From Kitasatospora phosalacinea (lineage in GTDB: Bacteria; Actinomycetota; Actinomycetes; Streptomycetales; Streptomycetaceae), in assembly GCF_000717185.1 (NCBI RefSeq), contig NZ_JNYE01000104.1, positions 1 to 28,681 on the forward strand: a stretch of 28,681 nt of DNA, read 5' to 3'. The number at the start of each line of letters is the position of its first letter. Position 1 is the stretch's first letter. The translations under genes were made by a program, and so were the position numbers. Of this stretch, positions 12,789-16,492 are shown piece after piece. The notes beneath the pieces were generated by a model. The model saw nothing but the letters and a program-made list of their open reading frames with translations, was not told the origin of the DNA and searched no databases.

Positions 12789-12841
12789 GCGTGCCCACCA
12801 CCACACCGACACGGCAACGAGCACGAGGGGGCCTCGGGTGA
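12785..12841 (+). CDS. Possible 18-codon mini-ORF between NRPS and PKS genes
   Basis: GTG at 12785 overlaps the upstream TGA, and the frame ends in TGA at 12839-12841, overlapping the GTG start of the ketosynthase gene. It would read [18 protein letters not shown]. Its only plausible role is to carry ribosomes across the 49-bp gap (translational coupling). It may be chance. Confidence 0.2.
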   Translation: MSVPTTTPTRQRARGGLG

Positions 12842-15363
12842 GTACCGAGACAGAAGACACCATGGAACCGATCGCAGTCGTCGGCCTCACCACCCGGCTG
12901 CCCGGTGCCCCCACCGCCGACGCGTTCTGGCGCAACCAGCGCGACGGGGTGGAGTCCATCTCCCGCTTCAGCACCGAGCAGCTGACCGACGCCGGGTGGC
13001 CCAAGGAGATGATCACCCACCCCGACTACGTGCCCGCCGCGGGCGTCATCGAGGGCGCCGACCGCTTCGACGCCGACTTCTTCGGCTACACCCGCGAGCA
13101 GGCCGAGATCAGCGACCCCCAGCAGCGGATCTTCGCCGAGTCCGTCTGGCACGCCCTGGAGGACACCGGCCACGACCCCGCCCGCTTCGACGGCTCCATC
13201 GGCGTCTACGGGGGCTGCTTCGCCAACAAGTACCTGCCGCTCAACCTGCTGGCCAACGCCCGCTTCCGCGGCTCCCTGGCGGCCTTCTCCGCCCGCCCGT
13301 ACAACGACAAGGACTTCCTCGCCACCAGGGCCGCCTACCTGTGCGACCTGCGCGGCCCGGCGATGACCGTCCAGTCCGCGTGCTCCACCTCCCTGGTCGC
13401 CATCCACCTCGCCTGCCAGGCCCTGCTGGGCCACGAGTGCGACATGGCCCTGGCCGGGGGGGTCGCCCTGCCGATCCCCCTGATCGGCGGCTACCCCGTC
13501 GTCGCCGGCGGCATCTTCGCCCGCGACGGCCACTGCCGCCCCTTCGACGCCTCCTCCAGCGGAACCGTCCCCGGGTACGGCGTCGCCGTCGTGGCCCTGC
13601 GCCGCCTCAGCGACGCGCTCGCCGACAACGACAACATCCGCGCCCTGATCCTCGGCAGCGCCCTCAACAACGACGGCTCCTCGAAGTTCGGCTTCAACGC
13701 CCCGAGCATGCAGGCCCAGGCCGAGGTCATCGCCACCGCCCAGGCCGTCGCGGGCGTCAGCGCCGAGAGCATCGGCTACGTCGAGGCCCACGGCACCGGC
13801 ACCCCGCTGGGCGACCCGATCGAACTCGCCGGCCTCACCAAGGCCTTCGGCACCGAGGAGCGCGGGTACTGCGCCATCGGCTCCACCAAGGCCAACATCG
13901 GCCACCTGGACGCCGCCGCCGGAGCCGCCGGCTTCGCCCGCGCCGTCCTGGCCCTCCAGCACGCCCAGATCCCGCCCAGCATCAACTACGAGGCGCCCAA
14001 CCCCGCGCTCCTGCTGGAACGCACCCCCTTCTACGTGCCCACCACCGCCCGCCCCTGGCCCCGCGGCGCCACCCCGCGCCGCGCCGGCGTCAGCGCCTTC
14101 GCCGTCGGCGGCACCAACGCCCACATCGTCCTGCAAGAGGCCCCCGCGCCGCGCCCCGCCGCACCCGGCCCGCGCGAGCACCACCTGCTCGTGCTGTCCG
14201 CCCGCACCCCCAAGGCCCTGGACGAGGCCGCAGCCGCCCTCGCCGAGCGGCTGGAGGGCGACGAGGACCTGCACCTCGCCGACGTCGCCCACACCCTCCA
14301 GGTCGGCCGCCGCGCCTTCGCGCACCGCCGCCACCTGGTGTGCCGCGACCGGGCCGAGGCCGTCGCCGCCCTGCGCGGGGCGGCCGCCCCCGGCGCCGGG
14401 TCCGCGCAGGCCGTCCGGAGCGTCTTCGTCCTCCCCGGCAGCGCCGGTCACCGCCCCGGGGCCGCCGAGGAGGTCTACCGCAGCGAAGCCGTCTTCGCGC
14501 GGGAGGTCGACCACTGCGCCGACCTGGCCCGTCCGCTGCTCGGCCAGGACCTGCGCACCCTGCTCTTCCCCGCCGCCCGGGACGGCTCCCGCACCGCGTC
14601 CGGCCCCGGCGACGACGCGGCCCGCACCGATCCGCGCGCCACCGCCCTCGCCGCCTTCGCCCTCCAGTGGGGCCTGGCCCGCCTGTGGCAGTCCTGGGGG
14701 GTCCAGCCCGCCGCCGTGATCGGCGACGGCGACGGCGAGTACGTGGCGGCCTGCCTGGCGGGGGTCCTGGACCTGCCCGACGCGCTCGCCGTCACCGCCG
14801 CCGCCGCCCTCGCGCGCGCCCGCACCGCCGCCGACCCCGGCGCCGCCGACGCCCACGCCGAGGCCTTCGCCGCCGACGCGGTGGGCCGCGTCTCCGGGCC
14901 GCCCCGGCTGTTCTACACCACCGCGGCCACCGGCACCTGGGCCACCGCGGACGACACCGCCGACCCGGCCGGCTGGGCCCGCCACCTCAGCGCTCCGGCG
15001 CCCTTCGCCGACGCCCTGCGCGAGGCGTCCGCCCTGGCCGACCACGTCCTGCTGGTCATGGGGCCCGCCGACCGCACCGCCCCGGCCCCCGGCCTCCAGG
15101 AGGGCGCCCGGCAGCTCGCGGTGCTGCCCTCGCTCGGCTCCGCCGACACCGGCCGGACGGACCTCGCCACCCTGCTGGACACCCTCGGCACCCTGTGGCA
15201 GGCCGCCGCCGACATCGACTGGGACGCCGTCCGCGGCACCGCACGGCCGCGGCGGGTGTCCCTCCCGGGCTACCCCTTCCAGCGCACCCGCTACTGGATC
15301 GGCCCGGACACCGAGAGCTACGAACCCCTGGGTCTGGAGGAAGCGTCATGGACGAGCCGTTGA
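12838..15363 (+). CDS. Polyketide synthase KS fused to a catalytically dead acyltransferase remnant
   Basis: This is 841 residues. The ketosynthase (about 8-430) keeps all three catalytic residues: Cys182 in QSACSTSL, His318 in EAHGTGTPLGDP and His356 in KANIGHLDAAAG. It should condense the upstream peptidyl thioester with a malonyl-type extender. The C-terminal half resembles an AT (VFVLPGSAGH entry, ALARLWQSWGV-like region, and a PFQRTRYWI ending). The nucleophile motif GHSxG is replaced by GDGDG at 629-633, losing both His and Ser, and no HAFH/YASH motif is found. There are no KR, DH, ER, ACP or TE domains. Start GTG 12838 is preceded by GAGGGGG; ATG 12862 is an alternative. The extender probably arrives on the discrete ACP encoded two genes downstream; this is inference. 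Confidence 0.92.
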   Translation: MSTETEDTMEPIAVVGLTTRLPGAPTADAFWRNQRDGVESISRFSTEQLTDAGWPKEMITHPDYVPAAGVIEGADRFDADFFGYTREQAEISDPQQRIFAESVWHALEDTGHDPARFDGSIGVYGGCFANKYLPLNLLANARFRGSLAAFSARPYNDKDFLATRAAYLCDLRGPAMTVQSACSTSLVAIHLACQALLGHECDMALAGGVALPIPLIGGYPVVAGGIFARDGHCRPFDASSSGTVPGYGVAVVALRRLSDALADNDNIRALILGSALNNDGSSKFGFNAPSMQAQAEVIATAQAVAGVSAESIGYVEAHGTGTPLGDPIELAGLTKAFGTEERGYCAIGSTKANIGHLDAAAGAAGFARAVLALQHAQIPPSINYEAPNPALLLERTPFYVPTTARPWPRGATPRRAGVSAFAVGGTNAHIVLQEAPAPRPAAPGPREHHLLVLSARTPKALDEAAAALAERLEGDEDLHLADVAHTLQVGRRAFAHRRHLVCRDRAEAVAALRGAAAPGAGSAQAVRSVFVLPGSAGHRPGAAEEVYRSEAVFAREVDHCADLARPLLGQDLRTLLFPAARDGSRTASGPGDDAARTDPRATALAAFALQWGLARLWQSWGVQPAAVIGDGDGEYVAACLAGVLDLPDALAVTAAAALARARTAADPGAADAHAEAFAADAVGRVSGPPRLFYTTAATGTWATADDTADPAGWARHLSAPAPFADALREASALADHVLLVMGPADRTAPAPGLQEGARQLAVLPSLGSADTGRTDLATLLDTLGTLWQAAADIDWDAVRGTARPRRVSLPGYPFQRTRYWIGPDTESYEPLGLEEASWTSR

Positions 15364-16202
15364 TCGCCATCGTCGGTGCGGGCGTCATGGGCACCGGAAT
15401 CTCGACGCTCGTCGTCGGACAGGGGCTGCCCGTCGTCCTGGTGGACATCGACCAGGGCGTCCTGGACCGCGCCGCCACCGCGGTCCGCCACGGCCTGCGC
15501 CACGGCCAGCTCATCGGCGCGCTGCCCCCCGGCACCGCCCCGGGCCGCCTGCGCACCACCCTGCGGCTGCAGGACGTCGCCGACGCCGACGTGGTCATCG
15601 AGGCCGTCACCGAGGCGCCCGACCGCAAGGCCGACGTCCTCGCCGCCGTCTCGGCGCTCGTCTCCCCCGGGACCCCGGTCATCTCCAACACCTCCGGCAT
15701 CCCCATCGACGAGATGGCCGCCTGGGTCAAGGACCCCGGCAGCCTGATCGGCACCCACTTCATGAACCCCGCCTACCTCATCCCCATGGTCGAGGTCATC
15801 CGCGGCCCCCGGACCACCGACCCGACCGTCCAGCGGGTCCTGTCCACCCTCACCCGGATCGGCCGTCGCCCCGTCGTCGTGCGCGACGCACCCGGCTTCG
15901 TCACCAGTCGGCTCCTGCACCCCATGATCAACGACGCGGCCCGCGTCGTCAGCGAGGGCACCGCCACCGCCGAAGACGTCGACACCCTCATGCAGGGCTG
16001 CCTCGGCCACCCCACGGGCCCGCTGCGCACCGCGGACCTGATCGGCATCGACAACCTCGTCGACGCCCTGGAAGAACTCCACGCCCGGACCGGCGACGAG
16101 CGGTGTCGCCCCAGCGAACTGCTCCTCGAGAAGGTCCGGCGGGGCGAGCTCGGCCGAAAGAGCGGCCGCGGCTTCTACTCCTACAGTGAGGCACAGTCAT
16201 GA
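15348..16202 (+). CDS. 3-hydroxyacyl-CoA dehydrogenase-like protein, extender-unit pathway (FkbK type)
   Basis: This 284-residue NAD-dependent dehydrogenase has an N-terminal Rossmann motif GAGVMGTGIS (10-19). The catalytic His137 and Glu149 pair is spaced by 12, as in hydroxyacyl-CoA dehydrogenases (GTHFMNPAY... VEVI). The C-terminal helical domain ends GRKSGRGFYSY. In FK520- and ansamitocin-type clusters this enzyme oxidises glyceryl-ACP on the way to hydroxymalonyl-ACP. ATG 15348 is preceded by GGAGG and overlaps the ketosynthase gene by 16 bp; its end overlaps the ACP start by 4 bp (ATGA). The neighbours make the pathway role much likelier than fatty-acid or butanoate metabolism. Confidence 0.9.
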   Translation: MDEPLIAIVGAGVMGTGISTLVVGQGLPVVLVDIDQGVLDRAATAVRHGLRHGQLIGALPPGTAPGRLRTTLRLQDVADADVVIEAVTEAPDRKADVLAAVSALVSPGTPVISNTSGIPIDEMAAWVKDPGSLIGTHFMNPAYLIPMVEVIRGPRTTDPTVQRVLSTLTRIGRRPVVVRDAPGFVTSRLLHPMINDAARVVSEGTATAEDVDTLMQGCLGHPTGPLRTADLIGIDNLVDALEELHARTGDERCRPSELLLEKVRRGELGRKSGRGFYSYSEAQS

Positions 16203-16492
16203 CCCCCGAGCAGCACACCGCCAAGGCGCCCCTCGACACCGACGCCGTCATCGACCAGATCACCCGCTTCGTCGCCGAGGAGACCCGCACCGCCCCCGAC
16301 GCCGACCAGGACCTGTTCACCACCGGCCTGGCCAACTCCATGTTCGCCATGCAGCTGGTCGTCTTCCTGGAGCAGACCTACGCCGTCACGGTCGCCGGTC
16401 CCGACCTGCAGCTGTCCAACTTCCGCACCGTCAAGAGCATGGCCGCCCTGGTCGGCCGGCTCCAGGCGCAGGCCGCCGGCACCGATGTCTGA
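16199..16492 (+). CDS. Discrete acyl carrier protein for extender-unit synthesis (FkbJ type)
   Basis: This 97-residue carrier protein has a phosphopantetheine serine at 47 in the context LFTTGLANSMFAMQLV. That pattern is typical of the stand-alone ACPs of methoxymalonyl clusters rather than the DSL motif of module ACPs. It would hold the three-carbon unit while it is oxidised and perhaps methylated. It is also the only ACP near the ketosynthase, so it may present the extender to it and receive the condensed chain. It overlaps its upstream neighbour by 4 bp and its downstream neighbour by 8 bp. Confidence 0.92.
   Translation: MTPEQHTAKAPLDTDAVIDQITRFVAEETRTAPDADQDLFTTGLANSMFAMQLVVFLEQTYAVTVAGPDLQLSNFRTVKSMAALVGRLQAQAAGTDV

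Follow-up and report, generated by a model that had tools for sequence, protein, structure and literature searches.

A Kitasatospora ketosynthase with a degraded acyltransferase half beside a discrete acyl carrier protein: a candidate for chain extension without acyl transfer

Gene content of the locus

The locus of interest lies on a 28,681-nucleotide stretch of Kitasatospora phosalacinea DNA (the window), which is contig NZ_JNYE01000104.1 (C104) of a draft 8.6 Mb genome. The open reading frame list, read together with Pfam and NCBIfam profiles, gives a series of seven plus-strand genes: two nonribosomal peptide synthetases (NRPS1 and NRPS2), a ketosynthase (KS) protein with an acyltransferase (AT)-like second half, a 3-hydroxyacyl dehydrogenase (HCDH), a discrete acyl carrier protein (ACP), an acyl-CoA dehydrogenase (ACAD) and FkbH (Table 1). 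Gene ends overlap between NRPS1 and NRPS2 and again from the KS gene through FkbH, while the gap between NRPS2 and the KS gene is 49 bases. Both the start of the HCDH gene and a ribosome-site-like ggagg (15337–15341) lie within the 3' end of the KS gene. An earlier reading of the same letters (the original prediction) had placed its ketosynthase feature at 12838–16492; the KS-AT open reading frame accounts for 12838–15363 of that span, and the remainder belongs to the HCDH and ACP genes.

The specificity codes of the three NRPS adenylation (A) domains were read by eye against the PheA positions. The second (A2) is Leu-like and the third (A3) Gly-like; we know of no substrate that the A1 code fits. 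At the positions printed, the codes of A1–A3 are identical in 9/9 loci (two A1/A2 positions are printed for some loci only). By these hand-read codes, the peptide handed to the KS would be X-Leu-Gly. An FMN monooxygenase is nested in the Gly-type A domain ahead of the KS.

The ketosynthase and its relatives

Relatives of the KS protein were taken as the best 120 of 4540 (P0001–P0120), and the clade discussed below consists of P0001–P0040 plus the window protein. The closest database relative, likewise from K. phosalacinea, is 95% identical. Cys182, His318 and His356, the three residues singled out by the original prediction, show no change in any of 41 proteins (the window protein plus its 40 best relatives) or in 80/80 further homologues. 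Pfam also agrees that there is no ACP on the protein: it finds no PF00550 carrier domain, and one mark of a cis-AT module, an ACP in the same protein, is thereby missing. The same is true of the clade as drawn from the best 120 of 4540, where Pfam lists a PP-binding domain in none of the 40 members.

A KS tree was built from 120 of the 121 rows (P0039 was left out for its short KS part). The 40 rows with a dead AT form a single clade (SH-aLRT 100), which lies next to KS-AT-ACP-reductase proteins.

The C-terminal tail of the KS protein, GPDSGSYEPLGLEEASWTS, is conserved, its end being altered or missing in P0029, P0032, P0034–P0038 and P0040. We considered this tail as an ACP docking element. 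Its final nine or so residues are encoded where the HCDH gene has its ribosome-site-like sequence and start codon, which is enough to explain their conservation without docking. The stretch preceding them is still a candidate.

The AT half has lost its serine, its histidine and a whole subdomain

The AT half of the window protein differs from a working AT in two respects. Firstly, the nucleophile serine is gone. As the original prediction had noted, GDGDG (residues 629–633) stands in place of GHSxG, and the serine column holds glycine in 41/41 clade rows. Outside the clade, the serine is lost in 3/80 (P0105, P0058 and P0112). Secondly, the deficit goes beyond the missing motifs of the original prediction to the loss of an entire subdomain. 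The GxSxG position and the YISGVTG strand are 64 residues apart in the window protein and 30–64 across the 41 clade rows, against 128–130 in 78/80 others. The small AT subdomain of ~65 residues, which bears the catalytic histidine, is deleted in 41/41 (and short in 2/80 outside the clade); in the alignment, the histidine column is a gap in 41/41 clade rows and His in 77/80 others. The HAFH/YASH motif, whose absence the original prediction had also recorded, is missing because this subdomain is missing, and so both signatures of an active cis-AT domain (GHSxG and YASH/HAFH) are lost. The same short AT is seen in two proteins outside the clade that have their own ACP, P0105 and P0115 (72 and 63 residues, not 128).

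Structural comparison gives a similar picture. When the window protein is aligned to the AT of ZmaA (4qbu), ZmaA residues 215–305 are skipped; according to an excerpt of PMC4207774, ZmaA has a carrier-recognition motif at 286–288 and a YASH-type motif from 294. The AlphaFold model, a check that had been suggested along with the original prediction (mean pLDDT 87.7, pTM 0.89), shows two helices (646–665 and 667–683) and no strand between 633–640 and 692, where the small subdomain would be expected. With nucleophile, histidine and carrier site all lost, acyl transfer by the remnant is very unlikely. Pfam Acyl_transf_1 nonetheless matches it at 40 bits (cut-off 32.7), over model positions 1–134 of 319 only. 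Since this dead AT passes a curated family cut-off, automatic annotation may label it as an AT, and as a working one. In the Kitasatospora KS proteins of two related loci, L005 (10001–12364) and L012 (10001–12328), the AT remnant carries extra deletions, as if it were shrinking.

Constraint on the two halves and conservation of the cluster

The constraint on each half was estimated as dN/dS (NG86, on GC-rich genes) for 12 clade pairs, one of which is a repeat (L130 = L007), and for nine control pairs with live ATs and KS identity of at least 75% (a tenth, near-identical pair was excluded). In the clade, dN/dS is 0.11–0.27 for the KS and 0.37–1.0 for the AT remnant; in the controls the corresponding ranges are 0.22–0.39 and 0.30–0.46. 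The AT/KS ratio is 1.8–7.5 in the clade versus 0.8–2.0 in the controls, ranges that touch. Values for the remnant peak in the window's own group, at 0.62–1.0 (for the window and L124, KS 0.12 versus AT 0.75). The remnant is, then, less constrained than the KS and yet not free, which fits a scaffold role.

The surroundings of the KS gene were examined in 69 loci collected by KS similarity, eight of which are close (KS 68–85% identical; three from Kitasatospora, three from Streptomyces, and one each from Amycolatopsis and Actinokineospora). The order NRPS1–NRPS2–KS–HCDH–ACP–ACAD–FkbH is retained in 8/8 close loci, as are two methyltransferase genes and a LuxR gene, these three forming an inverted block in L011. 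Both methyltransferases were also found in two further genomes. In the remaining 61/69 loci the KS is at most 51% identical (best segment), and none has the ACP and HCDH. Within the genus, FkbH occurs in 43/70 genomes and the cluster in at least 6/70 (G000, G011, G021, G031, G044 and G050; not every FkbH match was assigned to a locus). The KS-AT protein could also be read as a decaying gene in a dying cluster, with the AT half of the window's own group near neutral and further deletions in P0002 and P0003; the low dN/dS of the KS and the full gene set in 8/8 close loci make this extremely improbable.

An extender cassette with its own methyltransferase

The genes following the KS gene correspond to an FkbG-K cassette. 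Pfam and ACP comparison identify a discrete FkbJ-type ACP, of the same type as other cassette ACPs, with FkbK-like (HCDH) and FkbI-like (ACAD) partners, and TIGR01686 identifies the FkbH-family loader, all as originally predicted. This is the only FkbH match in its own genome. The cassette has a further member that the original prediction did not contain: an FkbG-type O-methyltransferase (OMT; PF01596) at 19000–19662 on the minus strand.

The OMT bears on the identity of the extender unit. It is 70–73% identical to the OMTs of six FkbH cassettes of the genus (L093, L094, L100–L103), in which ACP-ACAD-FkbH is followed by an OMT in the same convergent position, and which we infer to make methoxymalonyl units. 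No such OMT was found in 17–20 kb searched at cassettes L120–L122. Given this match to the six cassettes, and given that other cassettes have no OMT, methoxymalonyl-ACP is the probable unit. Of the two units named by the original prediction, hydroxymalonyl or methoxymalonyl, the second is thus likelier. It might alternatively be that the unit stays as hydroxymalonyl-ACP and the OMT acts elsewhere, with the same AT-free condensation following. The position of the OMT on the opposite strand, beside a second methyltransferase, and the inversion of the methyltransferase-LuxR block in L011 would suit this version; the identity and shared convergent position of the OMT in the six cassettes speak against it, and we consider it rather unlikely.

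Three cassettes were fetched at length (L126–L128); in these, HCDH is present and the adjoining polyketide synthase (PKS) frames have an intact GHSxG. The clade ACPs carry V[VM]FLEQ and GPDLQL[SF]NF in 12/12 (L130 repeating L007), where 18 other ACPs (several of them repeats of one genome) have VVHLE (15/18), VVFLED (2/18) or VMFVE (1/18). These clade-specific changes prove nothing about partners, because they come from one lineage. A separate NRPS-PKS locus, L129 (5.9–9.2 kb), combines a divergent FkbH cassette and a KS 48% like that of the window with an AT bearing GYSLGE, which resembles the ACP-specific ZmaA motif.

Search for another AT and for a second ACP

If the remnant transfers nothing, a separate AT might do so. 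The statement of the original prediction that there is no other AT in the window holds, and neither was a second ACP found there: the carrier domains that Pfam finds among recognised gene products are limited to two in NRPS1, one in NRPS2 and the discrete ACP itself. In the flanks of the cluster in G050 and G021 (three genes upstream in G021 and two in G050, two downstream in G021; crude gene calls) there is no AT, ACP or thioesterase.

The genome-wide search for a dedicated trans-AT, proposed together with the original prediction, was carried out as a survey of discrete AT frames in six genomes: the window's own, G001, G002, G004, G021 and G050 (G003 and G005–G008 were left out). The own genome has a presumably FabD-like frame, frames on contigs C50 and C35, and short frames at contig edges. 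G001 has the FabD-like frame plus C44, G002 the same plus C51, and G021 the same plus three further small AT frames, two of which lack any 200-residue frame with G[HYQ]SxGE. G004 has the FabD-like frame as its only one with an intact motif; a second, weak frame of 321 residues lacks GHSxG. G050, a single-contig genome, has no discrete AT frame other than the FabD-like gene; leaving the remnant aside, the nearest AT-like match lies 330 kb off and scores 30 bits, under the cut-off. The own C50 and G002 C51 frames are 52% alike; the other non-FabD-like frames have no close match in the compared set, which did not include the G021 frames. Only the FabD-like AT is common to all six genomes (65–98% identical); NCBIfam fabD matches all six of these genes below its cut-off, and malonate_mdcH matches slightly higher but also below cut-off. 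No dedicated trans-AT serving the cluster was found in the window or in the six genomes.

A trans-AT system is one alternative. In such a scheme a discrete AT encoded elsewhere in the genome, either the FabD-like one or one belonging to another cluster, would act upon the cluster ACP or an ACP farther off, with the remnant as a module for AT docking like those of colibactin and oxazolomycin. By structure, ClbC and OzmQ KS1 align with the model over nearly all of their observed chains (726/748 and 662/681 residues), as they would if the small subdomain were missing from them as well; their AT regions gave no long sequence match to the remnant. Candidate enzymes exist in the form of the C50, C35, C44 and C51 frames and the three small G021 frames. 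These non-FabD-like ATs are, however, not shared among the genomes, with G050 and (for an intact motif) G004 having the FabD-like one only. The window yielded no second ACP either, and a malonyl-CoA enzyme would have no CoA substrate to transfer, since the extender is built on an ACP. We consider a trans-AT unlikely.

A possible route without acyl transfer

We propose that the KS probably joins the X-Leu-Gly peptide to a methoxymalonyl unit on the discrete ACP, which would keep the product, with the AT half as a dead scaffold. The steps would be as follows: (i) FkbH loads a glycolytic three-carbon unit onto the discrete ACP, (ii) the FkbK- and FkbI-like enzymes oxidise the bound unit to hydroxymalonyl-ACP, (iii) the FkbG-type OMT methylates this to methoxymalonyl-ACP, (iv) Cys182 receives X-Leu-Gly from the last peptidyl carrier protein and the KS condenses this peptide with the ACP-bound unit, and (v) a peptidyl alpha-methoxy (or hydroxy) beta-ketoacyl thioester remains on that ACP. 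No acyl transfer step would be involved, the AT half acting as a shortened scaffold. Steps (i)–(iii) are those of the named FkbH/FkbK/FkbI/FkbG pathways, transferred here to this cluster. With no second ACP found to receive the extender from the one on which it would be built, the simplest path is condensation on the building ACP itself, with the product left there. That the KS takes its extender straight from the ACP, the core of the original prediction, remains the best fit to the AT losses, to the lack of an acceptor ACP in the window and to the lack of a dedicated trans-AT in six genomes, and is supported by gene content and evolution.

Several observations weigh against this proposal. The FabD-like AT, present in 6/6 genomes examined, might act on the discrete ACP, and the own genome and three others carry further discrete AT frames. 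The clade adjoins KS-AT-ACP-reductase proteins; an AT was therefore present in its past, and one acting in trans might still be required. Finally, the clade shows good conservation of the AT core around GxGDGEYVAACLAG, and the position of the substrate-binding Arg holds Arg in 18/41 clade rows (Ala in the window), so that the remnant may retain some role. Deletion of this ZmaA-type Arg, which we had considered, was dropped on the same column.

A different use of the KS is also conceivable: as in SalC, it might close a ring on the peptide and extend nothing, the ACP-bound unit being used in another step. The KS resembles SalC in structure, but ordinary elongating KSs score equally high, the KS triad is complete and the extender cassette overlaps the KS gene, all of which render a SalC-like role highly unlikely.

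As for release from the proposed condensation, no thioesterase was found, and so ring closure or a host enzyme would have to free the product. Our guess is ring closure, through the amide nitrogen (giving a tetramate) or through an oxygen on the Gly carbon (giving a tetronate). A more far-reaching version is offered tentatively, as a possibility that we do not expect to hold in full: loss of the AT would be permanent and clade-wide, one ACP would serve as building site, donor and product holder, and ring closure to a methoxy-tetramate or -tetronate would be aided by the nested monooxygenase, with neither AT nor thioesterase needed.

Comparison with known systems

The cassettes of FK520 and bafilomycin type have the same five enzyme kinds as the window. 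The unit of FK520 is passed on by an AT to the ACP of a module, whereas the window has no working AT and no module ACP. Degraded ATs on KS proteins are known from trans-AT systems, and the AT-less PKS of oxazolomycin is served by discrete ATs. Oxazolomycin OzmN KS2 and OzmQ KS1 are top-ranking structural matches to our model. The "uncommon logic" of the original prediction is hence only partly new: degraded ATs on KS proteins have precedents, and the unusual point here is that a dedicated AT and a second ACP are both lacking.

Zwittermicin (ZmaA/ZmaD) uses an ACP-bound hydroxymalonyl extender, and the ZmaA AT ranks third among solved structures related to the remnant; according to PMC4207774, it moves hydroxymalonyl to a second ACP and keeps Ser192 and a YASH-type motif. 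Colibactin is an NRPS-PKS product with an aminomalonyl extender made by ClbD-F, with ClbI and ClbC matching closely in both sequence and structure. An excerpt of PMC10924459 has ClbG transferring the aminomalonyl unit to ClbK; no dedicated counterpart of ClbG was found for the window.

The same cluster may have been described before. Phytohabitans pks/nrps-6 contains KS/ATm, ACP and FkbH, with a product given as Ala-Leu-x-pk and an AT called malonyl type (PMC7692728, in excerpt); from gene order it appears to be the cluster of the window, and P0036, from Phytohabitans houttuyneae, falls in the AT-dead clade. The foxicin and ichizinone clusters were rejected as homes of the window cluster (the genes differ), and althiomycin is an analogy only (Gly then a malonyl unit, an O-methyltransferase and a thioesterase). 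Our searches of open-access papers gave no product for this conserved cluster, and in those parts available to us we came upon no account of methoxymalonyl- or hydroxymalonyl-ACP serving a KS in the absence of an AT.

ACP-bound extenders are hard to move between assembly lines, a matching AT being needed. If the proposed route is correct, a natural KS using an ACP-bound unit directly would show the AT to be dispensable, and would provide a short natural test system of one KS, one ACP and four enzymes.

Neighbouring genes

Table 1. Features of the window, with coordinates on the forward strand.
Feature	Position	Strand	Basis or remark
Glycosyl hydrolase family 16 with F5/8 type C domain	78–1055	-	Left window edge, outside cluster
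NRPS1, A-PCP-C-A-PCP (C, condensation; PCP, peptidyl carrier protein)	3259–8379	+	Pfam; specificity residues hand-read (second A Leu-like)
NRPS2, C-A-PCP with luciferase-like monooxygenase nested in Gly-like A domain	8376–12788	+	Pfam; TIGR04020
Nested MupA/Atu3671-type FMN monooxygenase domain	10539–11558	+	NCBIfam TIGR04020, 499.9 bits; nearest solved structure PuwE (6ket)
KS-AT remnant protein, 841 aa, no ACP	12838–15363	+	Open reading frame, Pfam, alignment, AlphaFold model
GDGDG, residues 629–633, at AT nucleophile motif (GHSxG) position; serine to glycine	14722–14736	+	Alignment
FkbK-like 3-hydroxyacyl dehydrogenase (HCDH)	15348–16202	+	Pfam
Discrete FkbJ-type ACP	16199–16492	+	Pfam; ACP comparison
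FkbI-like acyl-CoA dehydrogenase (ACAD)	16485–17621	+	Pfam
FkbH	17618–18715	+	TIGR01686, 365.8 bits (cut-off 146.65)
FkbG-type O-methyltransferase (OMT)	19000–19662	-	PF01596
Second S-adenosylmethionine (SAM) methyltransferase	19670–20488	-	In 8/8 close loci
LuxR-type regulator, start uncertain	20485–22116	-	In 8/8 close loci
NAD(P)H-binding short-chain dehydrogenase/reductase (SDR)-like gene	22177–22851	-	6/8 close loci; between LuxR gene and peptidases
Small helix-turn-helix (HTH) regulator	23078–23629	-	Between LuxR gene and peptidases
M20 dipeptidase-like gene	23668–25038	+	Downstream of cluster; seen in 6/8 close loci
S9 prolyl-oligopeptidase-like gene	25035–26804	+	6/8 close loci; several loci end inside region
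DHA2-type major facilitator superfamily (MFS) efflux gene	27073–28542	+	Among close loci L009 only, most others ending sooner

The M20, S9 and MFS genes downstream of the cluster are also present in G050 and G021, and perhaps have a role in processing or self-protection.

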